Source: Spirosoma fluviale (lineage in GTDB: Bacteria > Bacteroidota > Bacteroidia > Cytophagales > Spirosomataceae). Taken from it: DNA of 64,000 bases. The stretch is from contig NZ_OCNH01000004.1 in the NCBI RefSeq assembly GCF_900230225.1, positions 186,001 through 250,000 of the forward strand, read 5' to 3'. Numbering within the stretch: position 1 is the stretch's first letter; each line of letters starts with the position of its first letter. The position numbers and the translations under genes were made by a program. Positions 45,200 through 61,136 of this stretch are shown one piece after another. The notes under the pieces are model-generated. The model was not told where the DNA came from and ran no database searches. It saw only the letters and a program-made list of their open reading frames with translations.

Positions 45200-46396
45200 A
45201 TGAACGTTTTAATCGCTTCCTATCTAGTCACTTCTTCACCCTCCGGTGTGGTGACCTACTACCAAAAACTAGCGGCTGATCTGGCCAGGGCCGGTTATAG
45301 GGTTCATATCGTCGACTCTTCCCATACGCCCACCATCTGGCGCAAAGTCCTGGGTCTCTTGAAACGCATCATGCGTCCTTTGGGCGGCAGTGCCCGGGCG
45401 GCCTATGACGAGTTTGCTTATTTTACGGGCGTCTACTTGTCGGTTCGCCACCTGCGCCATTCGACATTCGACCTGATCCACGCCCAGGATGCCCGCTCAG
45501 GCGTGGCTGCCTGGCTGGCCCTGGGCAAGCAAGTGCCCGTCATCCTGAGCTGTCATTTCAATGACGATCCCGTAACCGAATTAGCTCTTAGTTTTTCGTT
45601 AAAGCCCCGGGCAACGGCCCGACTCGCGAGCTGGTACCGCTATTTATTTTCCAGCATCCACCATTATGTGTTCAGTTCTGAGTATGCCTACTCCAAATCC
45701 AAACATCTCTTGCCGGTTCGCTTTAACAAACACATTCTTTACAATACGGTCGATTTACGGGCTACTACTGACCCATTGAGCCGATGTCCGTCTGATCAAT
45801 TTCGTATCAGCAATGTGGGCTACATCGATCAACGAAAAAACCAACAATTACTGCTTCGGGTTGGTCATCAGCTACGCCAGCGGGGGCATCTCAATTTTAC
45901 GATCTGGCTGATCGGGGAAGGCCCACAGCGGCTGGCCTATGAGCACTTGGCGTACTCGCTGGGTCTGGCGGAACAGGTCCGGTTTTATGGCCATCAGGCA
46001 GCCCCCTGGGCATTGGTGGCTCAGTCGGACCTGTATGTGCACACCGCCCTGAATGATAATTGTCCCTTCGCTATACTGGAGGCATTTGCGGTAGGCACGC
46101 CGGTGCTGGCCCTGGCCGTAGGTGGGATTCCGGAAATGGTACCCGTCGGCTCAGGCCTGCTGCCGGATGCGGATGTCAGCCGCTTGACGGATGAGGTGAT
46201 ACGTTGTTTCCAGCCGTCCTACCGTGCCGGGTTGGCAGTCACCCAGTCCACGTTTGCTCATCAGCGCTTCGACCACCAGACGAATCTGGAGAAGTTGCTT
46301 TTGTTCTACCGGCAAGCGGTTAAATCTCCTTTATTGGGGCCAATGGCTAAGGGGTCAACCAAACCCAATAGCCCCTACCCACTTAATGGGGAGTAA
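45200..46396 (+). CDS. Glycosyltransferase family 4-like protein
   Basis: A 398-residue GT-B enzyme. The N-terminal half begins MNVLIASYLVTSSPSGVVTYYQKLAADLARAGYRV, the usual acceptor-side start with the SGV loop. The C-terminal half has IGEGPQRLAYEHLAYSLGLAEQVRFYGHQ and then LYVHTALNDNCPFAILEAFAVGTPVLALAVGGIPEMV (about 285-320), with the catalytic glutamate pair of family 4 in the FAILEAFAVGTPV block. The ATG at 45200 is preferred; a TTG at 45170 extends the frame. A lone glycosyltransferase, lying between two repeat copies (44445 and 46520) and away from other glycan genes, so it may be part of an acquired cassette. Confidence 0.85.
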   Translation: MNVLIASYLVTSSPSGVVTYYQKLAADLARAGYRVHIVDSSHTPTIWRKVLGLLKRIMRPLGGSARAAYDEFAYFTGVYLSVRHLRHSTFDLIHAQDARSGVAAWLALGKQVPVILSCHFNDDPVTELALSFSLKPRATARLASWYRYLFSSIHHYVFSSEYAYSKSKHLLPVRFNKHILYNTVDLRATTDPLSRCPSDQFRISNVGYIDQRKNQQLLLRVGHQLRQRGHLNFTIWLIGEGPQRLAYEHLAYSLGLAEQVRFYGHQAAPWALVAQSDLYVHTALNDNCPFAILEAFAVGTPVLALAVGGIPEMVPVGSGLLPDADVSRLTDEVIRCFQPSYRAGLAVTQSTFAHQRFDHQTNLEKLLLFYRQAVKSPLLGPMAKGSTKPNSPYPLNGE

Positions 46397-46703
46397 ACGA
46401 CATGGCGGATCAGGTACACTGGAATCAACAGGATGCTCCGTGGCGTAGTGTTGGGGTTGCTTGTGTGATTCTGTTGGGAATGGGTTTAATTTATGACGAT
46501 TAACTCGGTCTTGTCATGGGGTCTGTTCTGATAGCATTGAACACTATCCGTAGCATCCGGTTGAACGAGATGTCCTTCTATACGTTTCCTTTATATCAGC
46601 AAAAGTGCTCCTGATTAAATGTTGTAATATTCTTTAAGATTCAATTGTCTGACCGTATTAATCTAGCCTGAAATCATATGTTTACCCCTGTGGTGTAAAC
46701 AGC
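46397..46703. other. 307 bp gene-free stretch with repeat copy
   Basis: Contains the repeat copy at 46520-46565 and a short stem tgtttac / gtaaaca near 46679-46701 just past the SGNH gene stop. No gene seen. Confidence 0.5.
46520..46565 (-). repeat. Dispersed palindromic repeat, partial copy at 46.5 kb
   Basis: Minus-strand reading gttcaaccggatgctacggatagtgttcaatgctatcagaac carries the conserved ATGCTACGGATAGT core followed by a diverged GTTGGACA-like block. Only the core half is well preserved. Confidence 0.5.
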
Positions 46704-48608
46704 CTAGTGTTTCAGAGCTTGAATTTGTTGTTTTAAACGAAGTGCATCTATATTATGACTATTAAGGCTCAGCGATTTTTCCACATATTTAGTGGCAGCG
46801 GTTGTATTGGCAAATTTGAGATAGCTGGCAGCCACTTGATTGCTTAACGTTATGTTAGTAGTATCCTTGGTAAACTGCTGCTTCACAACAATTAACTGCT
46901 GAACAAATGCCTGAAGTTCACCCAGACTAAACTGCGATTGGTTACTGGCAGCCGCAAATTGGAGATAAAGCAGAGCTTCTTCGGGGCGGTCCAGCTTAAG
47001 CAACGTAACAAATAGCTTTTGCGCGGTCTCGAACGTATTCTCCAGATGAAAAGCCTTTTTCAGATACGTAATGGCTAGGTCATTTTCATTCAGACTCAAA
47101 CAGAGTTTACCCGCCTGACTGTACAAAGCCGGTTCGTATGGATACTCCAGCGACAGCGCTTCCGTCACTTGTAAAGCTTTAGGCAGGTTCTTCTGCCCTA
47201 CGTAGCGACTGGCGAGTTGGTTCATGGCATCACGCCAGGCTATTTGTTTAACAACCAGCGCCCCAGCCAACTGTTCTTCCACAGTTTTGGGGCGCTTCTC
47301 CTCTGGTGGCATGGGGATATTGAACGGCCAGCCTTCTTTCAGAATCATCATCTCGTAAGCACCTTTGAGCGAATCTACAGACGTAATGGGCATCCGCTGC
47401 CTCAACGTAGTAAACGAAATTTCATTTTTACCATTAGCCGGAATCAACTGCCGCTGTTTCAGCGCTTCGTAAAACGCATCTGACAGCAAGGCGTACCCAA
47501 ACAGATTCGGATGAACATGTTCCAGTAAGGTTTCCTGACCTAAAATGCCATAGGGCGAGTGTTCGTCAAAAAACCGTTTCGTATCGACCAGCGTAACGCC
47601 TGGGTATTTAACAGCTACGTCCTGAATGATCTGGTTCATAGCTTCAGGTGCCCGAAACCGAAGCAGATCCAGTTCTTTCGCCTGTATGAATACTTTTTTT
47701 GCTTCGACGAAATTACCCTTCGCATAGGCCTGGCTGGCGAGCTTAAATTTTGCCTGGGCCGATGAAGCACCGTTGCTCGGAGCGCTGATAAAGGGTTTTA
47801 GGTCTTTTTCGTTACTGACCAGATTGCTGATAAAAACCGGAATTTGCTGCGTGCTCAGAAGCTGGCAGAGGTCGTTCAGATTGGTTTTGAATTGGTTGAT
47901 ACCTGCCTGATAGATTGGGGAACCGTACGGAATCTGCTGATCGGCGGCCATACGTTTCATCAGGTTTTCTCTCAGATCCACTTTCTGGCCAGAGAGCGCC
48001 TTGCGAATTCCGCTCACGGCATGATTGATGAGTTGTATCAGTCGAAACTCGCGGAGCCAGATCACCAGCCGCATCAGCGACGGATTATGGGCGATGGAAC
48101 TGGTAGAACCAACTCCTAAAGCACCGTAGTATTCGTTATGGCCAGTGTAAATCAACACAGCATCGGGGGCGTAATCGACCAATTCCTGAGCAAATCCGTA
48201 GACAGTATACGTATTAACGGCCGTCAGCGACAGGTTGATAATCTCGAATTCTTTATCGGGAAAGGTGTGCATCAATCGGTATTTCAACCACCGGTGAAAT
48301 GAACCGTTGTGCATGTACGGATAACCGATCGTGGTTGATTCGCCCAACACGAAAATTCGTAACGTGCCGTCTGCTTTGCGTTGCGGAAAGGGTTCAAAAT
48401 TACCAATCGTCGCGTTTTCTGTTTCAGTAAAATACCGCTCCGATGCATACTGATTCATAACCCAATAGCCCTTGCGTTCGGGATATTCCACAAATAGGCT
48501 TAGGTTATGGCCATATCCGAACAGTCTGAGCAACATCTCTACCAATGCCAGCATGAGTAAAGGCAAGATCATTGCAATTCCCTTAAACAGCCACAGCCGC
48601 TTTTTCAT
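46704..48608 (-). CDS. Membrane-anchored SGNH/GDSL hydrolase with C-terminal TPR repeats
   Basis: A 634-residue protein. An N-terminal helix (MKKRLWLFKGIAMILPLLMLALVEMLLRLFGYG) probably stays as a membrane anchor. The SGNH hydrolase domain (about 75-390) shows block I FVLGESTTIGYP (nucleophile serine near 89), block II glycine in INLSLTAVNTY, block III YTGHNEYYGA, and block V LEHVHPNLFGYALL (histidine near 366). From about 465 to 634 come TPR-like helices. Relatives act as O-acetyl esterases or acetyltransferases on glycans. It lies downstream of the ManD-like gene on the same strand, about 110 bp away across a hairpin, so it may or may not belong to the SusCD locus. Confidence 0.82.
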   Translation of the reverse strand: MKKRLWLFKGIAMILPLLMLALVEMLLRLFGYGHNLSLFVEYPERKGYWVMNQYASERYFTETENATIGNFEPFPQRKADGTLRIFVLGESTTIGYPYMHNGSFHRWLKYRLMHTFPDKEFEIINLSLTAVNTYTVYGFAQELVDYAPDAVLIYTGHNEYYGALGVGSTSSIAHNPSLMRLVIWLREFRLIQLINHAVSGIRKALSGQKVDLRENLMKRMAADQQIPYGSPIYQAGINQFKTNLNDLCQLLSTQQIPVFISNLVSNEKDLKPFISAPSNGASSAQAKFKLASQAYAKGNFVEAKKVFIQAKELDLLRFRAPEAMNQIIQDVAVKYPGVTLVDTKRFFDEHSPYGILGQETLLEHVHPNLFGYALLSDAFYEALKQRQLIPANGKNEISFTTLRQRMPITSVDSLKGAYEMMILKEGWPFNIPMPPEEKRPKTVEEQLAGALVVKQIAWRDAMNQLASRYVGQKNLPKALQVTEALSLEYPYEPALYSQAGKLCLSLNENDLAITYLKKAFHLENTFETAQKLFVTLLKLDRPEEALLYLQFAAASNQSQFSLGELQAFVQQLIVVKQQFTKDTTNITLSNQVAASYLKFANTTAATKYVEKSLSLNSHNIDALRLKQQIQALKH

Positions 48609-48647
48609 AAAAAAAATCTACCGTTTTTGCCGCCTTCAACAGAAAAT

Positions 48648-48701
48648 AGCGATAAGAGTGATTTCCAAAGCGTATCGCAGTTGAAAGTGGCTCTTATCGC
48701 T
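48648..48701 (-). terminator. Possible terminator of the ManD-like gene
   Basis: Perfect 11 bp inverted repeat agcgataagag (48648-48658) / ctcttatcgct (48691-48701) with a 32-base loop; on the minus strand it is followed by attttct. The long loop makes it a weaker case. Confidence 0.5.
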
Positions 48702-48718
48702 GAATTACTCGCTGGTGA

Positions 48719-50098
48719 TTACGGCCGAATGAGTGTGCCATCCATCTTGCGAACTTGCCAGTTGGACTTGGTACTGATGGGGTATTTGGCCGCTTCCTTC
48801 TCGTTGATGTCCACGCCTATGCCCGGTACCTCATTTACCGACATATAGCCCTTGTCCATCGTCGGACAGCCGCTGAAAACCTCCTTCATCTTGTCCGAAA
48901 ATGACACCGCTTCCTGAATCCCGAAGTTCCACACCGCCAGATCAATATGGGCATGAGCTGCGTGACCCACAGGTGATACGTCCCCCGGACCATGCCATGC
49001 CGTCCGCACGTTGAACCACTCGCCTAACCGGGCTACCTTCATGGCTGGTGTGATGCCTCCAATCTGAGAAACGTGGATTCGGATGAAGTCGAACCATTGA
49101 TTAACCATAGGCTCCTTGAACTCGTTGACGTTGTTGAACAGTTCGCCCATCGCAATCGGCACTGAGGTGACCTGACGAAGCTGGGCAAACCACTTCATGT
49201 TTTCGGGCGAGAAAGGGTCTTCGATGAAGAAGGGTCGGTAGTCTTCCAGCTTCTTAATCATGTTGATGGCCTCAATGGGCTGCACACGCTCGTGAATGTC
49301 GTGTAACAGCTCGACCTCCTCACCACATTGCTTGCGCACCACGTCGAACATTTTTGGTACCGACTTCAGATACAACTGCACATTCATGTAGTTGTCGGTC
49401 TCGCCCCCGAAGCCAGCCGTTTTGAAGTCAGGCTTATCGGAAGTAGCGCCAACGGCACCGTAACCACCTTGCTGAATACGGATGTGTTTGAACCCCTGCT
49501 CCATGAACTTCCTGACACTCTCAGCGGCAGCTTCCGGGGTGTTGCCACCGGCATGGGTGTAGCAGGGAATGGCGAAGCGCACTTTACCGCCCAGAAGTTG
49601 ATAAACGGGCATTTTAGCGCGTTTGCCTTTAATGTCCCATAGGGCCTGATCCAGTCCAGAGAGAGCGTTGTTGAGTACGGGTCCATTGCGCCAGTACGAG
49701 CTTACGTAAGCTCCCTGCCAGATGTCTTCGATGTTGTCGACATCCTTGCCGACGCAGAATTCGTTTAGATACGTATTGATGGCCACCACCACCACAGCCG
49801 CCCGCTGAGTGAAGGTAGCACAGCCGAGTCCGTACAGACCTGGCTCCGTGGTTTCGACTTTGACGACAATAAGATTGGAGCCTTGGGGAGCCGTAGCAAT
49901 AGCTTTGACGGATTTGATTTTAATCGGTGGCGCACCGACAGCATACTGTGGTTTACCTTGTTGTTCACGGGCTTCGGCTGTCGACGTACCACTAAATAGG
50001 CCCAGAAGACCGGCCGATGAGCCGAAACCAAGCGTCTTTAACGTATCACGGCGGCTTTGATTAGATTTACTGTCGTGTGATGCACGCGTTGTACTCAT
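48719..50098 (-). CDS. Enolase-superfamily sugar-acid dehydratase (ManD/RspA-like), Tat-exported
   Basis: A 459-residue mandelate racemase/muconate lactonizing family protein. The metal ligands follow the mannonate dehydratase (ManD) arrangement: D and H in LLHDIHERV (about 265), E in FFIEDPFSPE (about 290) and E in IAMGELFNN (about 315). TAWHGPGDVSPVGHAAHAHIDLA near 385 also fits ManD/RspA. Unlike cytosolic ManD it begins with a twin-arginine signal (QSRRDTLKTLGFGSSAGLLGLFSG), so it should work in the periplasm. The substrate is probably an aldonic acid such as one made by the PQQ dehydrogenase encoded just upstream. The ATG at 50098 starts the signal; a TTG at 50137 is also in frame. Confidence 0.87.
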   Translation of the reverse strand: MSTTRASHDSKSNQSRRDTLKTLGFGSSAGLLGLFSGTSTAEAREQQGKPQYAVGAPPIKIKSVKAIATAPQGSNLIVVKVETTEPGLYGLGCATFTQRAAVVVVAINTYLNEFCVGKDVDNIEDIWQGAYVSSYWRNGPVLNNALSGLDQALWDIKGKRAKMPVYQLLGGKVRFAIPCYTHAGGNTPEAAAESVRKFMEQGFKHIRIQQGGYGAVGATSDKPDFKTAGFGGETDNYMNVQLYLKSVPKMFDVVRKQCGEEVELLHDIHERVQPIEAINMIKKLEDYRPFFIEDPFSPENMKWFAQLRQVTSVPIAMGELFNNVNEFKEPMVNQWFDFIRIHVSQIGGITPAMKVARLGEWFNVRTAWHGPGDVSPVGHAAHAHIDLAVWNFGIQEAVSFSDKMKEVFSGCPTMDKGYMSVNEVPGIGVDINEKEAAKYPISTKSNWQVRKMDGTLIRP

Positions 50099-50195
50099 GG
50101 AAATATGGGTTGAAGGGTTAATAAGTTTATGTAACAAAGCGTCTCACGTATTGCCTGGTGTTAAGTTTTAGAACCTGATTCCACCGGGAATACGG

Positions 50196-52382
50196 TTAAG
50201 GCAGCGCAAACGCGATATAGGAGCCGCCCGGTTTATGGCCGTTTTTGACGCCACCAGCCGCAATCACTACGTATTGCTTCCCGCTCACCTGATACGTAAT
50301 GGGTGTAGCAAATCCTCCGGCAGGAAGCTGATACTCCCAAACGACCTTACCCGTTTTGCGGTCAAAAGCACGAATGCGTTCATCATACGTAGCGGCAATA
50401 AAGATCAGGCCACCTGCGGTAACAATTGGTCCACCATAGTTCTCAGTGCCCGTTATTGGTATTCCCTGCTTTGTTAGTTCGGGGAACTCTCCCAGCGGAA
50501 CTTTCCACAGATACTCCCCCGTGTTCAGGTCAATGGCATTGAGTGTTCCCCAGGGTGGTTTTACCGCCGGATATCCATCGGGATCGACGAAACGCGTCCA
50601 GCCGTTGTTAATGTAAGGCGGTATGTAAGGGTATTCGGATTTTGCTGCCACTGCCGTTGGGCGTCCGGCGCTATGCTGATCGTCGGTTTCGCTGGCTTTT
50701 GTCTCGGTATTGAGCAAAAACCGGACAAGCGTGCTACGGTCCTGCTCAGAAATATGCTCGAAAGACGGCATTCGTCCCCGCCCCGTTTTTAGAATCGCTT
50801 GTATATCCTGTCCCGATAACCGACTCCCGATATTGACCAGACTTGGGTAGGCATCACCACTGCCTTTCCGGTCGATTCCGTGGCAGGCTGCACAGTTGGT
50901 TTGATAAAGCGTTTTCCCTTTCGAGGCTATTTCAGCGTTGCGTGCTGCCAGATCTGCCATTTTCAAATCCCAGACCATTTCATTGGAATTCTGGTAGAGG
51001 ATTCCATCCGGATCAGCTGCGTTTCCACCCCACTCGGCTCCCCCGCCAATGCCAAAAAACAGGGTACCTTCCAGACTTGGGGGCATGAACTTACTGCCGG
51101 AGCGGGTTTTTAGGAATCGCTCCTTCACAAACGCATGCGCTTCGGGGGTTCGGTCAGTAATATCTGCTTCCGTGAACACCTGCCGTGCAAAAGGGACAGG
51201 CTTCATTGGAAATCGTTGCCTGGGCCAAGGATGTTCTCCTGGTAAGCCCGACGTTGGTACAGCCCGCTCCTCAACCGGAAAGAGCGATTCGCCTGTATCG
51301 CGGTCAAGCACATAAATCAGCCCGTCTTTCGTGGACTGAGCCACCGCATCAACCTTATGACCCTTGTGGGTCACAGTAATCAGATTGGGTTGACAGGGTA
51401 TATCACGATCCCACAAATCGTGATGAACCGTCTGGTAATACCACTTCAGTTTACCCGTTTCGGCGTTCAAGGCGAGAATACAATCCGAATACAAGTTCTG
51501 TCCCGCCCGGCTTCCTCCGTAAAAATCGACGGCGGGTGAACCAGTGCCCAAATAGACCATGTCCCGTTTTTCGTCCAGAACCATGCCGGCCCAATTGTTA
51601 GCGCCACCTATTTTCTTATAAGCGTCTTTCGGCCAGGTTTCGTAACCCGCTTCACCCGGTTGAGGAACGGTATGGAATGTCCAGCGAATTTTGCCGGTAC
51701 GTATATCAAACGCACGTACGTGTCCCGGGGCAGCGTCGCCATATTCAGATACGGTCGCTCCCAACACCAGCAAATCTTTATAAATAACGCCCGGACTGGT
51801 TGCCGACACCGAAAGCTTCGTAATATCAACGGTAGCATTATCGAGTAAGCCCTCCCGCAGATCCACTTCTCCGTTTTTACCGAACTGGGCGACAGGCTTA
51901 CCCGTCAGGGCATTGATGGCATAAAGCGTTGGGCCAGCCGAGTAGAGAATGCGTTTGTCTGCTCCATCTTCCCAGTACAGGACACCCCGATTCTGACTAT
52001 ACCGGGGTGTTTTATCTTTAAACGGGTCGAATGTCCAGAGTTGTTCACCCGTGTGAGCACGTAACGCAAACAGCTTCAGTTTGGGCGTATTGCCGTAAAG
52101 AACTCCATTGACAACAATCGGCTGACATTGAATCTCTGGCTGGCGGTCCGTTTTACCGTCAACGGCGGCCGCATCGTACATCCAGGAGACTTTAAGGTTT
52201 TTAACGTTTCCGGTATTGATCTGGCTAAGAGTTGAATAGCGATTTCCGGCTTTATTCCCACCATAACTAGCCCAGTCGGTATTGCCTGGCGTATCAATCG
52301 TTACGTCGTTTCGATTTGGATAAATAGCCATGAGCGTTAACCCTAGCCCAGCCATTGATCCGACTCTTAAAATGTTCTTCAT
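50196..52382 (-). CDS. PQQ-dependent dehydrogenase with cytochrome c domain
   Basis: Periplasmic quinoprotein of about 728 residues. After a signal-type N-terminus, the eight-bladed propeller starts at TDWASYGGNKAGNRYSTLSQIN, the standard opening of PQQ alcohol/glucose dehydrogenases. W-motif blades recur (GKLKWYYQTVHHDLWDRDIPCQPNL, TGKVVWEYQLPAGG). A cytochrome c domain with haem motif CAACHGIDRKG near residue 493 is inserted before the last blades, with the methionine ligand probably in GRGRMPSFEHI. Electrons would pass from PQQ to this haem. No PQQ biosynthesis genes lie in the window. The substrate is probably a sugar or sugar alcohol. The ATG at 52382 is used; the frame also opens from a GTG at 52406. 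Downstream of the truncated gene at 52407. Confidence 0.92.
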   Translation of the reverse strand: MKNILRVGSMAGLGLTLMAIYPNRNDVTIDTPGNTDWASYGGNKAGNRYSTLSQINTGNVKNLKVSWMYDAAAVDGKTDRQPEIQCQPIVVNGVLYGNTPKLKLFALRAHTGEQLWTFDPFKDKTPRYSQNRGVLYWEDGADKRILYSAGPTLYAINALTGKPVAQFGKNGEVDLREGLLDNATVDITKLSVSATSPGVIYKDLLVLGATVSEYGDAAPGHVRAFDIRTGKIRWTFHTVPQPGEAGYETWPKDAYKKIGGANNWAGMVLDEKRDMVYLGTGSPAVDFYGGSRAGQNLYSDCILALNAETGKLKWYYQTVHHDLWDRDIPCQPNLITVTHKGHKVDAVAQSTKDGLIYVLDRDTGESLFPVEERAVPTSGLPGEHPWPRQRFPMKPVPFARQVFTEADITDRTPEAHAFVKERFLKTRSGSKFMPPSLEGTLFFGIGGGAEWGGNAADPDGILYQNSNEMVWDLKMADLAARNAEIASKGKTLYQTNCAACHGIDRKGSGDAYPSLVNIGSRLSGQDIQAILKTGRGRMPSFEHISEQDRSTLVRFLLNTETKASETDDQHSAGRPTAVAAKSEYPYIPPYINNGWTRFVDPDGYPAVKPPWGTLNAIDLNTGEYLWKVPLGEFPELTKQGIPITGTENYGGPIVTAGGLIFIAATYDERIRAFDRKTGKVVWEYQLPAGGFATPITYQVSGKQYVVIAAGGVKNGHKPGGSYIAFALP

Positions 52383-52406
52383 AGATTTTGTTGAGAATTT
52401 CAGCAC

Positions 52407-52667
52407 TTACGTACCCGATAAATCGGCTATTTCGAAGCGGACTGTGGTAGGGTGTAATAAGGAAATACTATGCCCGCTAAACGTAAGACTTGCCATAACA
52501 CCCGACCAGTCGAACCGCACACCCTGATAATAGCCTTTGGCTGAATCCGGAAGATAGACTTTTGCGTGAATTACCCCATTCGAAATATCGGTTCGCGGAA
52601 ACGGGGGCAACAGAACGGCACTGATTATGCCAGCCAGCATAACCCCAACAATACTTGCCTGCTTCAT
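52407..52667 (-). pseudogene. Truncated remnant of a secreted protein gene
   Basis: 86 residues from ATG at 52667. A signal peptide (MKQASIVGVMLAGIISAVLLPP) is followed by ISNGVIHAKVYLPDSAKGYYQGVRFDWSGVMASLTFSGH, then a divergent end and a stop. I recall that this opening belongs to a Bacteroidota/Acidobacteriota family of about 330 residues, in which the SGVMASLTFSGH-like block is followed by a further 250 residues. Here the frame ends about 20 residues past it and the next gene starts within 25 bp, so most of the gene seems deleted. A functional short version cannot be excluded. It sits between susD and the PQQ dehydrogenase gene. Confidence 0.6.
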
Positions 52668-52692
52668 GAGTGTCGATTCTACTTGTTACGGG

Positions 52693-52740
52693 GGTGGTGC
52701 AGAGGTGTCAGGCTCTCAAACCTGACACCTCTGCACCACC
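52693..52740 (-). terminator. Perfect 20 bp hairpin after susD
   Basis: ggtggtgcagaggtgtcagg (52693-52712), eight-base loop ctctcaaa, and exact complement (52721-52740). There is no T-run on either side, so it may protect or attenuate the mRNA rather than terminate. It could lower expression of the genes after susC/susD. Confidence 0.6.
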
Positions 52741-52754
52741 GACACCATAGGTTA

Positions 52755-54485
52755 CTAATACCCCGGATTCTGCTTTATATTGACGTTCGACGTAATCTCA
52801 TTGATCGGAATAGGCTGTGCGTAGTCGGTAGGTTCCCATTGAATCGCACCACCGCGAACGCGCTGGTAATAAGCCGCTTCTTTATCGCCAATTTTCCATC
52901 GACAGACATCAAACCACCAGTGCCCCTCGCCGAACAACTCCGCCCATCGTTCGTATTTGAGCGGATCATTTTTTAAGACCGCATCCGGAGCGCTGGTCTG
53001 ATCGGCCATGGTTTTATAGTCAACGGCAGAAGGTGTATTAACCGGGTAGCCATACGCTCGTCGACGGACTTTATTGACGTATTCCAGTGCGGTTACATTA
53101 TCCCCGCTATGCGTCAGCGTTTCAGCGTAGAGCAGGTATACATCGGCTAGTCGTAGCCACAATATATTGCTACCATTTGCCATATTCACTTCGCCTTCTG
53201 CACCGCCCAGATAGAGGTATTTCCGGAAACTCCAGGCTTCCATATCAATCTCCGAAATGTCGAGGTAGTGCGAGATCGGCTTTTTAACCCCGCTCACGAT
53301 CATCGAATCGACGTAGGGTTGCAAGCAGGCTACCCACAAACGCGGATCAACCGTTTTGTTAGTTCGGGCGGCAACTGAACGCGTGATGTACGCTTTGTCG
53401 ACGTTCGCCACGTTCGCCGTCGTTGTTCCCGCCGGGTAATAGTGCCCTAGATTGAAGCCAAAACGAGCTATATTTTTGGCGTGCGGAAAGACGTTCGACC
53501 AAGCCGAAGCCGCCTGTGCACCGTTGGTACCAACATACGTTGGCGCAATCACCATGCCGATGCTCGATCCCATCGATAGATCGGACGTACCGCGGTAGGT
53601 CATGTCAACATTCATGTTGAGTTCAACCAGGGATTCGGAGTTAAACTCATTCTGCCCGTTGAACATGTCTTTATAGGTATTAAATGGAACCAGCGATTTA
53701 CCACTGTTCGTCACGACATCGCTCAGATATGTTTTTGCATTCGCCCAGTCCTGCGTATACACGTACACCTTACCTAAGAATGCCTTAACCCCCCACTCAC
53801 CCATTTTATACTTATCGGTTGCACCGGTCCAGCTTTTACCTTTCAGCAGGGTTTCGGCGGCTTTCAAATCACTGACGATAAAATCCCAGCTTTGTTTAAC
53901 CGTGGCGCGCGACACCTGCGTTTCGGGTAGACTGGTTGACGCTTTCGTGATCAGGGGCACGCCCATTTTATCGCCACCCTGTCCATCGATCAGGAAGCTT
54001 TCGCCCCATAACGTAGTGAGGTAGAAATAATACCAGGCCCGCAGATACAATGCCTGGCCTTTGATTAGACTGATTGCGGCTGCGTCCGAAGCCGCAGCTT
54101 TAGGACCATAGGTTTCAATCGTTGCCAGCAACGTATTCGCGCGCTGTACACCCCGCCACAAATCCTGCCAGGTTCCCCGCAAAAAGTCGTCATTAACCTG
54201 CGAATTGTTTTGCGCCAGTTGAATCCAGGTTGTGGTTCCCTGCCAGCTTAAGTCCGTTGTATGATCCCACAGGTACGTGTTTTTGGCCAGCATATTATGA
54301 CCGAAGATGCTGGGCGCATGCTGGGTTGCGTAAACTCCCGCCAGGAGTTGCTCCAGATCAGCTACTGAACTCGGATAACCGCTGGTTGAAATGGCACCGG
54401 GGTTATCGACATTGACAAAATCCTCTTTACAAGCGGCTATACTCAGGAGTAAGGCAAAGAGGGAGAGTTGAATGAATATCTTCAT
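52755..54485 (-). CDS. SusD/RagB-family nutrient-binding outer-membrane lipoprotein
   Basis: A 576-residue surface lipoprotein that caps the SusC channel and captures the nutrient. The signal MKIFIQLSLFALLLSIAAC ends in a lipobox (Cys19), fixing the ATG at 54485. An N-terminal segment NVDNPGAISTSGYPSSVADLEQLLAGVY is followed by TPR-type helices with ALYLRAWYYFYLTTLWG (about 145-165). The C-terminal region has WLRLADVYLLYAETLTHSGD, VNKVRRRAYG and LFGEGHWWFDVCRWK, all classical SusD marks. It is immediately downstream of the SusC gene (40 bp). Its ligand cannot be deduced; the downstream oxidising enzymes suggest a small carbohydrate. Confidence 0.95.
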   Translation of the reverse strand: MKIFIQLSLFALLLSIAACKEDFVNVDNPGAISTSGYPSSVADLEQLLAGVYATQHAPSIFGHNMLAKNTYLWDHTTDLSWQGTTTWIQLAQNNSQVNDDFLRGTWQDLWRGVQRANTLLATIETYGPKAAASDAAAISLIKGQALYLRAWYYFYLTTLWGESFLIDGQGGDKMGVPLITKASTSLPETQVSRATVKQSWDFIVSDLKAAETLLKGKSWTGATDKYKMGEWGVKAFLGKVYVYTQDWANAKTYLSDVVTNSGKSLVPFNTYKDMFNGQNEFNSESLVELNMNVDMTYRGTSDLSMGSSIGMVIAPTYVGTNGAQAASAWSNVFPHAKNIARFGFNLGHYYPAGTTTANVANVDKAYITRSVAARTNKTVDPRLWVACLQPYVDSMIVSGVKKPISHYLDISEIDMEAWSFRKYLYLGGAEGEVNMANGSNILWLRLADVYLLYAETLTHSGDNVTALEYVNKVRRRAYGYPVNTPSAVDYKTMADQTSAPDAVLKNDPLKYERWAELFGEGHWWFDVCRWKIGDKEAAYYQRVRGGAIQWEPTDYAQPIPINEITSNVNIKQNPGY

Positions 54486-54525
54486 GATTCGGTCTTTTTG
54501 AGTCACTTACCAGAGTGAGGGAATA

Positions 54526-57500
54526 TTAAAAATTTACGTCGATACCAGCGGAAAGAAGCGTGGTTCGGGGATACGAATAGATCGTATCGATGCCCCGCCC
54601 CGTAGTGGCTGCGTTCGAGCCACTACTACGTCCGAGTACTTCCGGATCGAGCCCTGAATACTTCGTGAACGTCAGTAGGTTTTGCCCCTGCACGTAAACT
54701 CGAAGGCCAGACATTTTCCACTGTCTCATAAGTGAAGCCGGAAGCGTGTATCCGATCTGAACATTACGTAATTTGAGGAATGAGCCGCTTTCAACAGCGT
54801 AATCCGAAATCCGCGTATAGTTGGCGTTGGGGTCTCGAACGTAGTTTCCGGAAGCATCTGTATAACCTATCCGAGGCAGATCCGTAAGGCCATTGCCATT
54901 AAAGAACGACGTATTGAAAATGTCCCGGGTTGTGTTGTAATCTCCAACGAAAGTCGATGTATAAAAGCGGTTTGCGTTGAAAACGTCGACGCCGGTAATC
55001 CCCTGAAACAACGCTGAGAAGTCCAGCCCTTTCCAGGCCATATTCAACGTAATGCCGTATGTCATTTTTGGCCAGGGGTTGCCAATAAAGGTTTTATCGG
55101 CTGAGGTAATCCGACCATCCCCGTTTATGTCCTGAAACCGAAGATCACCCGCTCCTGTAGCAGCCGCCTGATAATAAACCCCGGTGGTGGTGCCGGTCGC
55201 TGCGGCTGCTTCCTGCGCCCGTTTGTTTAGGGCAGCTACGTCGGCATCACTTTGGAAAATTCCATCCGTTTTGTAGCCATAAAACTGGCCCAGCGGTTGC
55301 CCGGCCTGCGTGCGTGATACAACGCTCTCCAGATAATCGCCAGCAGGACCGTCGTTGATCGGATTGTTATTGGTACCATCTAATTTCTTCACCAAATTGG
55401 CGTTAAAGGCGGCATTACCCGAGATTCCATAGGTGAATTCCCCCGCTTTACCCCGATAATCCACGGCGATCTCCAGGCCTTTGTTGCTCATTTGCCCAAT
55501 GTTCGTATATACATTTGAGCTGCCAAAACCACCGGACATTGGAACAGGAACCTGGTAAATCATGTCGTTCGTCTGACGGCTATACCAATCGACGGTGATG
55601 TTCAGTGCATTACGCAACAGACCAACATCCAGACCGATATCGGTTTGAAGCACAGATTCCCATTTAATATCCTGATTGGCTAGCTGAGCAGTCAGCGAAT
55701 ATCCTTTCTGACGGGAACCGTCGGGAAGGCCCATACTCGTAATGGCGTTTGTGCCACCATACGAGTTCTGGTAAGTGTACTGCGGAATGCTGCTGGTACT
55801 TCCCAGTTTACCGTAGCTAGCCCGGAGTTTGAGGTTCGATACGTAGCTGAGGTTATCCTGAATGAAGGCTTCTTCGTTCAGTTTCCAACCAATGGAGGCC
55901 GAAGGGAAAACGCCGAATTTATTAGCGGGGCCGAAGCGATCGGAGCCATCCCGACGAACCGTTGCTGTTATCAGATATTTGTTGGCGTAGGCGTAATTGA
56001 CCCGTCCAAATTGAGATAGCAACCGGACCTGTGGGAATTCGCCACCACCGGATACGTAACTGCTGGGGTTGGCGGTTAAGCCCAGGTTATACGTTACGTA
56101 GGGAAAACTCTGAGCCTCGCCGTGTAAGGAACTCAGGTCTGATTTATACGCTTCGTAACCTGCCAGTACTTTAAATTCGTTCAGGCCAATTGTGCGCCCA
56201 TACGTCAGAACAAAGTTGGCCGTGAAGTTCCGCTGGTTATTGATATCGCGGCTTAGAAACGCATTCCTGTTGGCGACGGTGCCGTAGTCATACGCTTCCG
56301 TGAATCTGTAATTCTTTACGTTATAAATCGACGCTCCGAATGTAGACCGGAGATTGAGGCCTTTTACAATTTCCCAATCGGCATATAGATTACCCTCCAG
56401 CGCATATTGTTCATTCAGGGTGTGGTTCTGGTATTCCTGACCGACAAGATTTGGTCCGGTAAAAAAGGTGCCGGTTTTGGCCCATCCACCGAGCGGATTT
56501 GTTGCATCGTAGATGGGAACGACGGGTGCCGACCGAAACGGATACGTACTGGTTACGACCGGATTATTACCGGTTTTCCAGGCATAGAGCGTTTCGCCTA
56601 CTTTCAGTTTGTTGTTGATTTTAAAATCAGCATTCGAGCGAATCCCATAGCGCTCAAACCAGTTATCGATCAACGTACCTCCTTCGCGCTGGTAGTTGGC
56701 CGATAAGTAATAATTGGTTTTAGCCGTAGCGCCGGATAACGACAAGGAATAACTCTGGTCCGATCCGTTCGTATACAGATCATTTACCCAGTCATTATCG
56801 GGTAACGTATTCGGATCACCCCATCCACTCGTGCTAACCCCAAAAGCTTTCTTAGCGGTAATATAGTCGGGCGTATTGAGGAGCTTATACAGGTTTCGGG
56901 GTTGACGAACACCGTAATAGGCGTTGAAATTGATTTTCATCTTATCCGTGCCACTCCCCCGTTTGGTCGTCACCAGTACGACGCCACCAGCCGCCTGGGC
57001 TCCGTATATAGAAGCCGCACTGGCATCTTTCAGAATTTCAATCGATTCGACATCCTGCAGATTGAAGTTGTTTCCGGCCGACATCCGTATACCATCCACA
57101 ATATATAGGGGCGACATCCCTCCAATGGAACCTACCCCCCGAATAACAATGTCGGAACTGGCGCCCGGCGATCCGTCGTTACGTGTCACCTGTACACCAG
57201 CGGCACGCCCCTGCAGGGCTTCGTTGATACTCCGAACAGGCAGATTTTTTACGTCTTCTGCTTTCACAGACGAGATCGATCCGGTCAGGTCCGACCGCTT
57301 CTGCGTACCATACCCGACAACCACTACTTCGCTGAGGTTTTTCGTATCGGTAACTAACCTAACGCTCACATTCGCCTGATTCCCTACCGTAACTTCCTGA
57401 CTTAGGTACCCGACAAAGCTGAACACCAGTACGTCGTCGCCCGTTAGTAAAGTCATTCGGAAGAGGCCATTGGCATCCGTAGTAGTTCCACGCTGCGTTC

Positions 57501-57984
57501 CTTTTACAACAACACTTACCCCTGGCAGACCAACTCCCGCTTCATCCGTAACAGCACCTGACAAAGCCCGGTCGTTGAAGGCATCAGGACGGTCTAAAAT
57601 ATCCATACTCGTTGGTACAGGCAACTCCTGATTCAGGATGATCTGTCGCCCTTTTACGTAATATGTGATCAAAAGTGGCTTCAGGAGTTTATCCAGCACT
57701 TCACTTAGGCGCAGGTTCGTTGCATCAAGCGATGTATGATTATTTAATTGCATAAGCGCCGACCGATAAGCAAACCGAACGTCAGCCTGACGCCCCAGTT
57801 GGTGCAATACGGCTTTCACAGTTAGGTTTTCCGCGTGAAGCGTAACGCGCTGATCCATAACTTGCTGTGCTTCAACCGAGCGAGCCGTAGCCAGCCCGGC
57901 GATCATGGCCGCCAGAAGTAACTGATAGACAGTAAATTTCATAAAGCTATGCAACAGGCTAAGCGATTGTCGAAGTTTTTTCAT
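54526..57984 (-). CDS. SusC/RagA-family TonB-linked outer-membrane protein with STN signalling domain
   Basis: TonB-dependent importer of about 1152 residues. Order of parts: signal peptide ending near SVEAQ; STN (secretin/TonB N-terminal) domain with QRVTLHAENLTVKAVLHQLGRQADVRFAYR (about 45-115); carboxypeptidase-regulatory domain with GVGLPGVSVVVKGTQRGTTTDANG (about 150-205); plug with RSINEALQGRAAGVQV and SPLYIVDGIRM (about 240-340); and a 22-strand barrel with the C-terminal GIDVNF. The STN domain marks it as a transducer that signals to FecR, encoded just upstream. I prefer the ATG at 57984 (MKKLRQS); another in-frame ATG lies at 58044. Confidence 0.95.
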   Translation of the reverse strand: MKKLRQSLSLLHSFMKFTVYQLLLAAMIAGLATARSVEAQQVMDQRVTLHAENLTVKAVLHQLGRQADVRFAYRSALMQLNNHTSLDATNLRLSEVLDKLLKPLLITYYVKGRQIILNQELPVPTSMDILDRPDAFNDRALSGAVTDEAGVGLPGVSVVVKGTQRGTTTDANGLFRMTLLTGDDVLVFSFVGYLSQEVTVGNQANVSVRLVTDTKNLSEVVVVGYGTQKRSDLTGSISSVKAEDVKNLPVRSINEALQGRAAGVQVTRNDGSPGASSDIVIRGVGSIGGMSPLYIVDGIRMSAGNNFNLQDVESIEILKDASAASIYGAQAAGGVVLVTTKRGSGTDKMKINFNAYYGVRQPRNLYKLLNTPDYITAKKAFGVSTSGWGDPNTLPDNDWVNDLYTNGSDQSYSLSLSGATAKTNYYLSANYQREGGTLIDNWFERYGIRSNADFKINNKLKVGETLYAWKTGNNPVVTSTYPFRSAPVVPIYDATNPLGGWAKTGTFFTGPNLVGQEYQNHTLNEQYALEGNLYADWEIVKGLNLRSTFGASIYNVKNYRFTEAYDYGTVANRNAFLSRDINNQRNFTANFVLTYGRTIGLNEFKVLAGYEAYKSDLSSLHGEAQSFPYVTYNLGLTANPSSYVSGGGEFPQVRLLSQFGRVNYAYANKYLITATVRRDGSDRFGPANKFGVFPSASIGWKLNEEAFIQDNLSYVSNLKLRASYGKLGSTSSIPQYTYQNSYGGTNAITSMGLPDGSRQKGYSLTAQLANQDIKWESVLQTDIGLDVGLLRNALNITVDWYSRQTNDMIYQVPVPMSGGFGSSNVYTNIGQMSNKGLEIAVDYRGKAGEFTYGISGNAAFNANLVKKLDGTNNNPINDGPAGDYLESVVSRTQAGQPLGQFYGYKTDGIFQSDADVAALNKRAQEAAAATGTTTGVYYQAAATGAGDLRFQDINGDGRITSADKTFIGNPWPKMTYGITLNMAWKGLDFSALFQGITGVDVFNANRFYTSTFVGDYNTTRDIFNTSFFNGNGLTDLPRIGYTDASGNYVRDPNANYTRISDYAVESGSFLKLRNVQIGYTLPASLMRQWKMSGLRVYVQGQNLLTFTKYSGLDPEVLGRSSGSNAATTGRGIDTIYSYPRTTLLSAGIDVNF

Positions 57985-58077
57985 ACTTTTGCTTGTTTTT
58001 TGTCTATTTAATTTTAGGAATGGGCAAAGAACCCCCTGCCTCATCCTGGATGAGGGTCTCGAAAAAGGGTGTTAATC

Positions 58078-58113
58078 AAGTCAGTGATGCCGGAATCATC
58101 ACTGACTTTTTTT
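58078..58113 (+). terminator. Hairpin with plus-strand T-run between susC and fecR-like genes
   Basis: aagtcagtgatg / catcactgactt perfect 12 bp stem with a seven-base loop, followed by T-run to 58113 on the plus strand. For minus-strand transcripts it is followed only by ttgatt, so it may act weakly between the fecR-like and susC genes. No plus-strand gene ends here. Confidence 0.55.
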
Positions 58114-58181
58114 GTGTCTGATCAATCTATTTCATCATAGGCGGTACGTAGCAGGTTATTGATACAGGATTCATTTAGTAC

Positions 58182-59300
58182 TTATTTACAACCTTTACTG
58201 TTGATGACAATTTGCCCATCATGCACCTCATACGATGCGCCAATGGTCTGGCAGACAACGTCAAGCCGCTCAAGCAAAGTCTCATTGGTGAACATGAGGT
58301 TTACCAGGCAGGCCGACAGGTCAGCTTCGTTGAAAAGAATTTTTATGCCGTAGGTTCGCTCAAAGGCTGTAAGTACTTTGGCAACGGGAGCGTCTTCAAA
58401 TACCTGTTCCTGAGTGCCGACAGAAGGCATTAGAGCAGCTGGCTTTTCAACCAGCGCTTTTGTTAAGCGATTAGCCTCCAGATTAAAGATCATCTGTTGA
58501 TTCGGCGTTAGTACGATGCCCTGAATCCGTCGTATGCCTAATTGCTGGGCTCTTTCGAACTCCTGTTGTTTGTAAACGGACACACGTCCGGTTCGTACAG
58601 CAACTGTCACGTCTTTTTCGCCGTCAAAAGCCCGTACCAGAAAACTGGTACCCAGCACTTTGGTAACGGTTTGGTTGGCGTAAATCAGAAAGGGGCTGGC
58701 TGGATTTTTCACTACGTCGAAGAACGCTTCTCCGTTCAGATAAACCGTCCGGTTGGCACCGGCAAACTGCCTGGGGTAGCTCAGTCGACTTTTTGGCTGG
58801 AGGATTACCACACTACCATCGCCGAGTATGAGATTGACAGCTTTGGCTCCATTGTTGATTTTTTCCTGGAGCTGTACTGGCGTAATTTTCGTTAGATTGG
58901 CATACGACGTAGCGGCTGCCTTATGACTGATATTGATGTAAAACCAGCCACTAATGCCAATTGTAAAAACGAGGACTGCGGCCGCAACCCAGCGCCAGAA
59001 CGGGGTACGTTGTAGCAGCGGCACAATCGGCGTAACTGATTCGGAGTCCCGACGTTCGGCAGCATTGTTCATCAATCGCTGTAGTTCGCTGGCCAGCCGG
59101 TCGTCCGTTGCATCATCCCGATAGTGATTATTAAGAACACGTATCATTTCCTGAGCCTGCCGAACCACATGGACCCGATCAGGATGCTGAACCAGCCATT
59201 GCTCCCAAAAGGCAGTTGCTTGCGCAGACGTGCCACTCGTCCATTGGCGAAATGACTCATCGAACAGAAAATCTTCAACCTGATACGCTCTATAGTCCAT
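58182..59300 (-). CDS. FecR-family anti-sigma factor
   Basis: A 372-residue inner-membrane regulator. A cytosolic N-terminal region (about 1-95) would bind the sigma factor. One membrane helix (FWRWVAAAVLVFTIGISGWFYINI, about 98-121) follows. The periplasmic FecR domain (about 145-240) shows VNLILGDGSVVILQPKSRLSYPRQF and RTVYLNGEAFFDVVKNP. The C-terminal DUF4974 domain (about 298-370) has FEDAPVAKVLTAFERTYGIKILFNEADLS. It would hold or activate the ECF sigma factor encoded upstream, depending on the signal from the STN domain of the SusC protein encoded downstream. Spacing to the sigma gene is 110 bp and to susC about 200 bp. Confidence 0.93.
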   Translation of the reverse strand: MDYRAYQVEDFLFDESFRQWTSGTSAQATAFWEQWLVQHPDRVHVVRQAQEMIRVLNNHYRDDATDDRLASELQRLMNNAAERRDSESVTPIVPLLQRTPFWRWVAAAVLVFTIGISGWFYINISHKAAATSYANLTKITPVQLQEKINNGAKAVNLILGDGSVVILQPKSRLSYPRQFAGANRTVYLNGEAFFDVVKNPASPFLIYANQTVTKVLGTSFLVRAFDGEKDVTVAVRTGRVSVYKQQEFERAQQLGIRRIQGIVLTPNQQMIFNLEANRLTKALVEKPAALMPSVGTQEQVFEDAPVAKVLTAFERTYGIKILFNEADLSACLVNLMFTNETLLERLDVVCQTIGASYEVHDGQIVINSKGCK

Positions 59301-59410
59301 GTCGGAACAGCTGGCAACCGTGTGCCTTTGCTTCTATAGTGTCGGTATCGACCGGACAATACTCAGAAAAAATGAAAAATATTTTCAGGAAGAGTGCAAT
59401 TTCTCTCAGA

Positions 59411-60010
59411 TCAAAATTTTGACAGGAAAACGACCAGCAGTGACATCAACAAATCGGGCGACCATTGGCTACGAAGCTCTTTAAACGTTCTGTATAGGAG
59501 ATTAGCCACGCTTTGCCGTTCCATCCCCATAATCTGCGCAATTTCGTGATTATCTAAATTTTGGTAGAAGCGCAGATAAAGTACTTCCTGCTGGCGCTTG
59601 GTAAGCGTAGCCATTAATTGATGCAGAAGGCGGGTTTGTTCTGTGTGCAGTTCTTCATCAATTATTTCATCTTCTATAGAGACAGAAAATGGCATATTGA
59701 CGGGTTCAGATTCCTCTAAATGAACCGACTGGTGATGCGGTCGGGTCTTGAATAGCTTATACCGAAGCGCTTTTAATAAGTACGTCTTGACAAAAATGGC
59801 ATTGCCAATCGTTTCCCGATGATCCCAGAGTTCCAGAAATAAATCCTGAATGGTGTCCCAAACCAATTCAGAGTCAGTCGTTAACCGAAGTCCATAGTTA
59901 TACAGGCTGGCGTAATGGCCACGGGCTAACTCGCCCAAAGCCTGTTCATCACCGGCTTTAAAGCGTTGCCAAAGCTCTTGATGAGCCAGTCGCCTATAAT
60001 CAGTTAACAT
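59411..60010 (-). CDS. ECF-type RNA polymerase sigma factor (FecI-like)
   Basis: A 199-residue sigma-70 factor with only regions 2 and 4. Region 2 (about 24-92) contains YASLYNYGLRLTTDSELVWDTIQDLFLELWDHRE. Region 4 (about 130-185) contains LPRRQ-like LTKRQQEVLYLRFYQNLDNHEIAQIMGMERQSVANLLYRTFKELR as a helix-turn-helix. It belongs to the Bacteroidota FecI-like group that controls SusCD loci. It is first in the sigma-FecR-SusC-SusD array, so it probably drives expression of the downstream locus when substrate binds SusC. ATG at 60010. Confidence 0.93.
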   Translation of the reverse strand: MLTDYRRLAHQELWQRFKAGDEQALGELARGHYASLYNYGLRLTTDSELVWDTIQDLFLELWDHRETIGNAIFVKTYLLKALRYKLFKTRPHHQSVHLEESEPVNMPFSVSIEDEIIDEELHTEQTRLLHQLMATLTKRQQEVLYLRFYQNLDNHEIAQIMGMERQSVANLLYRTFKELRSQWSPDLLMSLLVVFLSKF

Positions 60011-60463
60011 TAAACGTTTACTGGAAAAAAGTTCATATCCAATGCAAGCAAAAGACGTTGGCTCCCCAATTATATTGGTTTATTAAGAAGTTTGTTTAAG
60101 TATGTATTTAATCTATAGAGATTATTTAATTCACCTGCAAATCTTACCAATCAGTAAGTCTGTAGTTAATATAGATAATTGCTTATAACTAAATGAGGTA
60201 GAGAAGTGTGTACTGTATGCTACAGATAGCCGGTCCGCCGGTGCGGTTGGACAGATATTAAAACCCGCTGTCCCAAAAAAAGCTCTTTTGAATGAAATGT
60301 CATTGATTGCCTCTCAGTACTCCTACCTACGCGAAATAGTAACTCAGTGAGGTTTTATTCGAGAACCCGGGCAGTACGATTCGGCAATGCAACTAAAAAA
60401 ACAAAATCGAGAGGTGATCAAGAAAGGTCATGTTGAGCTATTGGTGTAATGGCCCGAAAATAA
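60011..60463. other. 453 bp gene-free stretch with repeat copy
   Basis: Upstream region of the sigma gene, AT-rich from 60011 to 60200, then the repeat copy at 60211-60290. No gene recognised. Confidence 0.5.
60211..60290 (+). repeat. Dispersed palindromic repeat, copy at 60.2 kb
   Basis: tactgtatgctacagatagcc, then a ccggtccgccgg insert, then ggttggacagatattaaaacccgctgtcccaaaaaaagctc. Inner ggacag / ctgtcc pair forms a hairpin. The core matches the other copies. Confidence 0.65.
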
Positions 60464-61090
60464 TCAGAACAGGTAGCCTGCAGTGAGTCCAAGACGAACC
60501 CCAAGGCCGCCACTGCTCATGGCTTCGGCTACCGACGGCGAGAAAGGTCGGTTGGAGCTGGGTAGCTGGACTTGCAGGCCAAGGAAGGCTTCCAGGGTCA
60601 GCCGACCGAGCCTGGCTTGCCCCCCTACCATGCCGCCCGGTGTCAGCACGTAGATTTGTCGCTTCTCTTTGAGTAGTTCGCCAGTCTGGTTCCGTACAAA
60701 CTGACCTTTATCATCAAAGGCATAGTTATCCATTGTCAGCCGGGCAAACCGACTGTATACTCCCCAAAAGGTGTTCAGTGGGGCGCGAGAGCGGTTACCG
60801 AAGTAGTGCCGCCGTTCGACGGTTATTCGCTCAAAGTGGTAGTTGCCCGGCGATGGTACAGGGGTACTGTTGTTGTCGTAGCGGTAGAACTCCCAGCCAT
60901 AGCCCAGCCCGCCAACCCACGAAACCCGCTCCGAAACGGCCCGCTCGTAAAACAGGGAAATGCTTCGAAAGACAAACAGCGGCCCGGATTTTACGATGTT
61001 TCGTCGGGTAAACACCGAATCCGAAACCGTCTGAGCCTGGCCGGCTCCCGGCAGAACGGCAAAGGAGAGAACAAGTAAGTAAAATTTCAT
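60464..61090 (-). CDS. Small outer-membrane beta-barrel-like protein
   Basis: About 208 residues with a signal peptide (MKFYLLVLSFAVLPGAGQAQ), which fixes the ATG at 61090. The mature part has alternating beta-strand patterns: ISLFYERAVSERVSWVGGLGYGWEFYRYDN, RITVERRHYFGNR, TFWGVYSRFARLTMDNY, VGGQARLGRLTLEAFLGLQVQL, and a C-terminal VRLGLTAGYLF ending in Phe, the usual barrel-assembly signal. This resembles the DUF3575-type small barrels of Bacteroidota, but the exact family is not certain. Function unknown. It lies downstream of the FAD oxidase on the same strand. Confidence 0.72.
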   Translation of the reverse strand: MKFYLLVLSFAVLPGAGQAQTVSDSVFTRRNIVKSGPLFVFRSISLFYERAVSERVSWVGGLGYGWEFYRYDNNSTPVPSPGNYHFERITVERRHYFGNRSRAPLNTFWGVYSRFARLTMDNYAFDDKGQFVRNQTGELLKEKRQIYVLTPGGMVGGQARLGRLTLEAFLGLQVQLPSSNRPFSPSVAEAMSSGGLGVRLGLTAGYLF

Positions 61091-61136
61091 GGAAAACGGG
61101 TTCATTGTCGACAAAGTCAGTTACGTGATCTGTTAA

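Follow-up and report, generated by a model that had tools for sequence, protein, structure and literature searches.

The 64,000-nucleotide stretch of Spirosoma fluviale DNA analyzed here (the window; part of contig 13 of a 7.8-Mb genome) carries, on its minus strand from position 60010 down to 46704, a locus that probably joins a SusCD uptake system to a periplasmic oxidation-dehydration cassette operating along a route like those of De Ley-Doudoroff and Entner-Doudoroff. An initial annotation had listed at this place an extracytoplasmic function (ECF) sigma factor, FecR, an STN-bearing SusC, SusD, a pyrroloquinoline quinone (PQQ)/cytochrome c dehydrogenase, and a ManD/RspA-like dehydratase with a twin-arginine translocation (Tat) signal. 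All these genes were located in the open reading frame (ORF) listing and identified by Pfam and NCBIfam (Table 1). Two features had escaped the annotation: the last gene of the row was enclosed without its SGNH/GDSL and TPR protein being named, and the remnant of a mutarotase-fold gene went unseen. The gene set, export-signal patterns, catalytic residues, and recurrence of the locus were established at the level of sequence; from these, we infer the chemical steps and the substrate.

The SusC and SusD pair was confirmed by matches above cut-off to both TIGR04056 (852 bits against a cut-off of 368) and SusD_RagB; the STN match of SusC, at 26.4 bits, is slightly below the Pfam cut-off of 28.4. 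SusC, SusD, STN, ECF, and FecR are shared with those SusCD polysaccharide utilization loci that are under ECF/FecR control. In contrast to such loci, the window has oxidation, dehydration, and esterase-like genes, and, as the annotation had held, a scan of ten proteins (45170-62654) gave no match to a glycoside hydrolase domain. Glycan-degrading enzymes of the kind that accompany SusCD in polysaccharide utilization loci are thus lacking among these ten proteins.

Recurrence was assessed in two locus sets, which share species and cannot be counted as independent. The family set consists of 61 tabulated loci, including the window and a sister locus from the same genome, after one locus on a short contig (L105) was dropped. 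The named set consists of the best 80 of 540 confirmed loci, with rates biased to close relatives; it comes from Spirosoma, Larkinella, Fibrisoma, Dyadobacter, Runella, and others, and 59 loci with full flanks were separated in it using a hand-made list of 21 truncated ones. Genes in the locus tables were labeled by their best BLAST match in a small reference set. Of 150 genomes of the family, the Spirosomaceae, 52 have a close ManD-like gene (E up to 1e-150); a sample of the phylum gave 4 of 395 at E up to 1e-170, with three from this family. A PQQ gene lies within ~10 kb in 51 of the 61 family loci; among the other ten, L076 and L079 reach the edge of the stretch read and L102 is a short contig. 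In the named set, the PQQ gene is found in 52 of 80 loci (48 of the 59 with full flanks), PQQ, SusC, and SusD genes occur together in 43 of 80, and the PQQ and dehydratase genes are immediate neighbors in 24 of 80. Loci of the window type, which have the same SusC/SusD, PQQ enzyme, dehydratase, and GDSL protein, number 11 in the family set and 13 among the 80 named loci. They occur in Spirosoma, Larkinella, and Dyadobacter, with their genes consistently arranged as SusD-(mutarotase)-PQQ-dehydratase-(phosphoesterase)-GDSL. Spirosoma species account for the best-matching named loci. Since two stretches of 6.1 and 5.7 kb align to a relative at 84 to 85% DNA identity and the arrangement is found again in other genera, it is not accidental; chance clustering of the genes is ruled out by the recurrence of their order across genera.

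The dehydratase belongs to the MR/MLE group of the enolase superfamily (MR_MLE_N, 69.8 bits; MR_MLE_C, 152.3 bits; both above cut-off). Residues D280, E306, and E332, presumably the three acidic metal ligands, are kept together with H282 in 14 of 14 aligned sequences. The protein is 41.6% identical to E. coli RspA and 31.8% identical to E. coli DgoD, and its best Protein Data Bank (PDB) matches are 3t6c, 3tw9, and 4ihc. It thus shares with the ManD/RspA-like subgroup the two domains, the metal-ligand residues, and the His; it differs in having a Tat leader and an active-site loop shorter than that of RspA and in scoring below the ManD equivalog cut-off. The ORF begins at a TTG codon, but translation more likely starts from the ATG at residue 14.

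The Tat signal claimed by the annotation was assessed with a rule of our own: an uncharged hydrophobic stretch had to follow an RR pair located within the first 75 residues. Across the 80 named loci, this pattern is present in 81 of 81 ManD-like proteins, 28 of 28 DgoD-like proteins, 30 of 30 members of a third homologue, and 3 of 3 phosphoesterases. Among controls from the same loci, it was found in LacI (0 of 25), aldolase (0 of 7), DgoK (1 of 12), FecR (1 of 22), PQQ enzyme (1 of 41), and mutarotase-fold (2 of 27) proteins and in 22 of 313 other ORFs of at least 250 amino acids. Three of the 61 family loci did not pass a simpler test: the ORFs in L052 and L059 were called from an upstream start, and the open frame in L083 starts at the catalytic domain. 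TatC was found in all six genomes examined, including that of the window. E. coli DgoD and RspA start at the catalytic domain and have no leader, whereas the dehydratases of the window and of the sister locus carry Tat leaders. The dehydratase thus has both the signal pattern of a Tat substrate and the matching machinery in its genome, and its export is predicted. As a side observation, the Tat-tagged phosphoesterase, a purple-acid-phosphatase-like metallophosphoesterase (L054:10892-12142 and relatives), stands between the dehydratase and GDSL genes in some window-type loci.

The PQQ enzyme (PF01011, 622.2 bits) was compared with Gcd, the membrane PQQ glucose dehydrogenase of E. coli. In 43 of 43 sequences, D333, K360, W272, R140, and D675 of the PQQ enzyme align to Gcd D466, K493, W404, R266, and D730, and E221 occupies the position of Gcd D354. 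In contrast to these shared catalytic residues, Gcd N355 is not retained and Gcd H262 is replaced by F, Y, L, or R in the PQQ enzyme and its 42 homologues. The enzyme also differs from Gcd in having no counterpart of the N-terminal membrane domain and in carrying a c-type cytochrome inserted in the propeller, whose CxxCH heme motif is the same in all 23 sequences aligned. In its predicted structure (pLDDT 77), the enzyme resembles quinoprotein alcohol and methanol dehydrogenases. With its propeller and aligned catalytic Asp and Lys, the protein is, on sequence features, a PQQ quinoprotein. The window's genome (G000, contigs 4, 13, and 17; L214-L219) also has two further near-full-length homologues of the enzyme (50 to 53%) and two more distant ones.

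A second ManD-like gene, whose product is 91% identical to that of the window in the catalytic domain, is located on contig 10 of the same genome. At this sister locus, genes for a Tat-tagged MR/MLE protein, SusC, SusD, the ManD-like protein, and a Tat-tagged D-galactonate dehydratase are followed by genes for another SusC and SusD, a mutarotase-fold protein, a PQQ/cytochrome c enzyme, the 2-keto-3-deoxy-galactonokinase DGOK, and a 2-keto-3-deoxy-6-phosphogluconate (KDPG)-type aldolase, all on one strand. The D-galactonate dehydratase (DgoD) scored 446.2 bits against a cut-off of 311, and the aldolase gene is followed by one for an MFS carrier whose best NCBIfam match, below cut-off, is the D-galactonate transporter. 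Loci of the sister type in relatives are accompanied by a LacI-type regulator. The De Ley-Doudoroff gene set (galactonate dehydratase, kinase, and aldolase) is therefore complete at the sister locus and not in the window. A search of 19 genomes gave DGOK matches in 15; the window's genome has a single one, at the sister locus, which thus provides the kinase and aldolase expected to process a 2-keto-3-deoxy acid. The dgo operon of E. coli and others shares with these loci the enolase-superfamily dehydratase, DgoK-type kinase, KDPG-type aldolase, and DgoT-like carrier; identities to the E. coli proteins are 46% for the sister-locus DgoD, 33% for DgoK, 35% for the aldolase, and 28% for the carrier of a relative (L052). 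Unlike the dgo pathway, the loci described here have dehydratases with Tat leaders, oxidation by a PQQ/cytochrome c enzyme, and entry through SusCD.

The dehydratases of the two loci are closely alike within some genomes. Between their catalytic domains, DNA and protein identities are 99 and 100% in G004, 93 and 100% in G136, and 83 and 97% in S. arboris. The PQQ enzymes of the two loci are 62 to 64% identical within a genome in the window's genome, G136, and S. arboris (the second enzyme of G136 was taken from L106, whose contig matches G136 contig 39 in length); overall, PQQ enzymes are 76 to 95% identical within the window type, 73 to 88% within the sister type, and 61 to 66% between types. 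The simplest reading of the dehydratase uniformity is gene conversion between the loci. Such conversion would imply that the same reaction takes place in both loci, with the choice of sugar residing in SusCD and the PQQ enzyme, and a shared reaction would connect the window locus with the kinase and aldolase encoded at the sister locus.

The mutarotase-fold family has ~320 residues. The window keeps the first 67 codons of its gene, 82% identical to the intact gene of a close relative (L046); the rest is gone, and the remnant adjoins a deletion relative to G136. A member of the family is encoded between SusD and the PQQ enzyme in 9 of 11 window-type loci of the family set and 7 of 13 of the named set. 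Three members gave no Pfam match at E up to 5, and a PDB sequence search with the family returned 0 matches. The model of a homologue (L109:6514-7482; pLDDT 90.9) resembles known structures: 30 of its 32 top matches are titled galactose mutarotase or aldose-1-epimerase (best E of 3.0e-10) and two (3k25 and 1yga) are otherwise titled, with TM-scores of 0.42 to 0.59 over all 32. The modeled homologue thus has the mutarotase/aldose-1-epimerase fold. Since YidC periplasmic domains come next among the matches (from E of 2.6e-06), the fold by itself is no proof of a mutarotase enzyme. In relatives, the protein adjoins the presumed C1-oxidizing enzyme, which argues for a reducing sugar (an aldose) as the substrate. 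A sugar alcohol, which the annotation had also offered, appears less likely given the mutarotase-fold partner in the same gene row of many relatives and was set aside. Other arrangements of this family were also seen. In a Cytophagia metagenome-assembled genome (MAG), the mutarotase-fold protein is fused in frame with a PQQ/cytochrome c dehydrogenase (L122:11510-14632). In L141, L143, L147, and L155 (Daejeonella and Sphingobacteria-type MAGs), a ManD-like gene is followed by a mutarotase-fold gene, with neither PQQ nor SusCD genes within the stretch read; L147 additionally has a TIM-barrel xylose-isomerase-like protein beside them.

In the proposed route, ECF, FecR, and STN-SusC would detect a small sugar, perhaps in esterified form, and bring it in, after which the GDSL/TPR protein may take off the ester. 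The PQQ enzyme would oxidize the free aldose at C1, giving an aldonolactone, with electrons leaving via the enzyme's own heme; in relatives, the mutarotase-fold protein may supply it with the right anomer. The Tat-exported dehydratase would then convert the aldonate to a 2-keto-3-deoxy acid in the periplasm, and this acid would be taken up and then phosphorylated and cleaved in the cytoplasm by the kinase and aldolase of the sister locus. The conversion of aldose to aldonate and 2-keto-3-deoxy acid had already been put forward in the annotation; the sister-locus kinase and aldolase speak for it, and both its steps and its substrate stay conditional here. Hexoses of the galactose/glucose series, favored by the sister locus, are our candidate substrates, and a third locus type bearing GH95 (described below) leaves room for an L-sugar.

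A number of observations weigh against this reading. The dehydratase scored 395.8 bits against the ManD family (NF043051; cut-off of 550), so that filing it as ManD was rejected and D-mannonate is not established as its substrate; its score against galactonate dehydratase was 235.4 bits (cut-off of 311). The PQQ enzyme missed all three quinoprotein family cut-offs; with TIGR03074, it reached 472.6 bits against 832.65, in a match that begins at profile position 150. No PQQ gene was found in 28 of the 80 named loci, 11 of these with full flanks, and, among window-type loci, 2 of 11 in the family set lack the mutarotase-fold gene or have it broken and 6 of 13 in the named set lack it. The two dehydratases of the window's genome, 80% identical in DNA and 91% in protein, are not homogenized. 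No lactonase was identified; the GDSL protein was considered as a lactonase for the product of the PQQ enzyme and set aside, since it persists where that enzyme is absent. To these points are added the SusC orthologues, the glycoside hydrolase of a third locus type, and the supply of PQQ, each of which bears on an alternative explanation.

With the four best candidates scored per genome, 15 of the 150 family genomes proved to have a SusC orthologue. It has a GDSL/TPR gene beside it in all 15 loci, and Ser91, Asn158, and His366 of the GDSL protein, which we take to be the catalytic residues, are invariant in 15 of 15 aligned sequences. The PQQ and dehydratase genes adjoin the orthologue in 11 of 15 loci. 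The remaining four (L199-L202) have ECF, FecR, SusC, SusD, and GDSL, with no PQQ enzyme or dehydratase within the 19.9 kb read. The annotation had described a locus built around oxidation and dehydration and had proposed that absence of these two genes beside orthologous SusCD genes would count against it. Such absence is thus found in part of the orthologous loci. The recurrence of the pair near SusCD and of the gene order, in Spirosomaceae and other genera, holds up; a cassette that the uptake genes cannot do without does not. The GDSL and cassette counts suggest that SusCD and GDSL form the transporter core, with the cassette inserted between them, and, since four orthologues do without the cassette, the imported compound may differ from the cassette substrate. 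The cassette was also found with at least three SusCD types. The PQQ-dehydratase pair is therefore a cassette conserved in Spirosomaceae that is joined to several SusCD pairs and is not obligatory. These data fit a different division of the locus, in which an ECF-FecR-SusCD-GDSL unit imports an acylated compound and the cassette is a loose add-on that oxidizes periplasmic aldoses, mainly for respiratory electrons. We consider this division unlikely, though it deserves weight: where both are present, the cassette stands consistently between SusD and GDSL, which suggests joint use, and a mere electron dump would not need a dehydratase. At the cassette position of L200, between SusD and GDSL, there is an unassigned ORF of 649 amino acids (L200:9267-11216).

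Returning to a joined uptake and oxidation-dehydration system, its substrate may be of another series than galactose/glucose. A third locus type, seen in Dyadobacter, Larkinella, and Spirosoma, combines a different SusCD with a GDSL protein, a PQQ enzyme, and a dehydratase; this dehydratase is ~72 to 79% identical to the window kind (72 to 76% in the locus tables). In the one case scanned (L179, Dyadobacter), a GH95 enzyme is encoded before the PQQ-dehydratase pair. GH95 is linked to L-fucose and L-galactose, so an L-sugar such as these, or other 6-deoxy sugar, might be the substrate, with the dehydratase acting on L-fuconate-like acids. We judge this improbable for the window given that the sister locus in the same genome has a D-galactonate dehydratase above the curated cut-off, DGOK, and a KDPG-type aldolase, and that the identity of third-type dehydratases to the window kind is just in the range given above. 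At L179:2879-7757, the GH95 enzyme and a DUF7133/HEAT/cytochrome c protein directly precede the pair.

The proposed oxidation depends on PQQ, whose origin is not explained by the genomes. PqqC was found in 0 of the 52 genomes bearing the ManD-like gene, while a positive control, S. meliloti pSymB, gave 428 bits for PqqC and 610 bits for PqqE. In all 15 family genomes searched for PqqE, the matches were weak and below cut-off. Among six weak PqqU-like matches, the two best (26 to 27%) were checked and no convincing PqqU candidate was found: both have F at position 99 and are without R304 and R365, in a three-sequence alignment that is weak either way. The PqqU signature includes R304 and R365, with F accepted at position 99 (PMC12124388). 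The same paper reports that many PQQ users do not synthesize PQQ and that its synthesis genes are missing from 206 Bacteroidota that carry PqqU (PMC12124388). With PqqC found in none of the 52 genomes, the cell probably does not make PQQ, which would then be supplied from outside. That the PQQ-like protein is instead an empty quinoprotein, in a locus without sugar oxidation, agrees with these absences and with a match to TIGR04528, acido-empty-quinoprotein (258 bits, below the cut-off of 650), but is very improbable in view of the aligned catalytic Asp, Lys, and Trp, the invariant heme motif, and the above precedent of PQQ users without synthesis.

For the family as a whole, we are evenly divided on a broader proposal: Spirosomaceae may have a modular periplasmic route in which up to three Tat-exported dehydratases, a mutarotase, and scavenged PQQ convert different aldoses, brought in by different SusCD pairs, to 2-keto-3-deoxy acids before the inner membrane, with one dehydratase kept uniform by gene conversion. 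To our knowledge, sugar-acid dehydration is known only as cytosolic chemistry. The parts described here are known already, while the combination of SusCD with an exported sugar-acid dehydratase and a PQQ enzyme appears new; we recognized no description of such a locus in the literature covered, which consisted of titles and abstract openings and included few subscription papers. If the proposed system operates, SusCD would feed a pathway that harvests electrons and forms a keto-deoxy acid outside the cytoplasm, using a cofactor that the cell apparently cannot make, and sugar uptake in these Bacteroidota would be tied to PQQ released by neighbors. The model also offers testable functions for the mutarotase-fold family without a Pfam match and for the SGNH/TPR protein.

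Table 1. Features of the locus in the window, from position 60010 down to 46704.
Feature	Position	Strand	Identification
ECF sigma factor	59411..60010	-	Pfam Sigma70_r4_2; TIGR02937, 70.5 bits (cut-off 42.9)
FecR anti-sigma factor	58182..59300	-	Pfam FecR and FecR_C
SusC TonB-dependent transporter with STN signaling domain	54526..58044	-	CarbopepD_reg_2, plug, STN; TIGR04056
SusD	52755..54506	-	Pfam SusD_RagB and SusD-like_3; N terminus lipoprotein-like by eye
Mutarotase-fold gene remnant	52467..52667	-	tblastn and blastn; fold from intact homologue
PQQ beta-propeller dehydrogenase with inserted c-type cytochrome domain	50196..52406	-	Pfam PQQ and Cytochrome_CBB3
Tat-tagged ManD/RspA-like enolase-superfamily dehydratase (export predicted)	48719..50137	-	MR_MLE_N and MR_MLE_C; Tat pattern
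SGNH/GDSL esterase-like protein with N-terminal hydrophobic stretch and TPR repeats	46704..48608	-	Pfam Lipase_GDSL_2, 35.9 bits (cut-off 32.9)

Upstream of the ECF gene, also on the minus strand, are genes for a 216-amino acid protein without a family match (60464-61114) and for an FAD-binding oxidase with a cytokinin-dehydrogenase-type domain (61137-62654). Among more distant loci, L156, L157, and L161, from MAGs named Pedobacter, Sphingobacterium, and Bacteroidetes bacterium, contain rows of six ORFs whose best BLAST matches are MR/MLE proteins.

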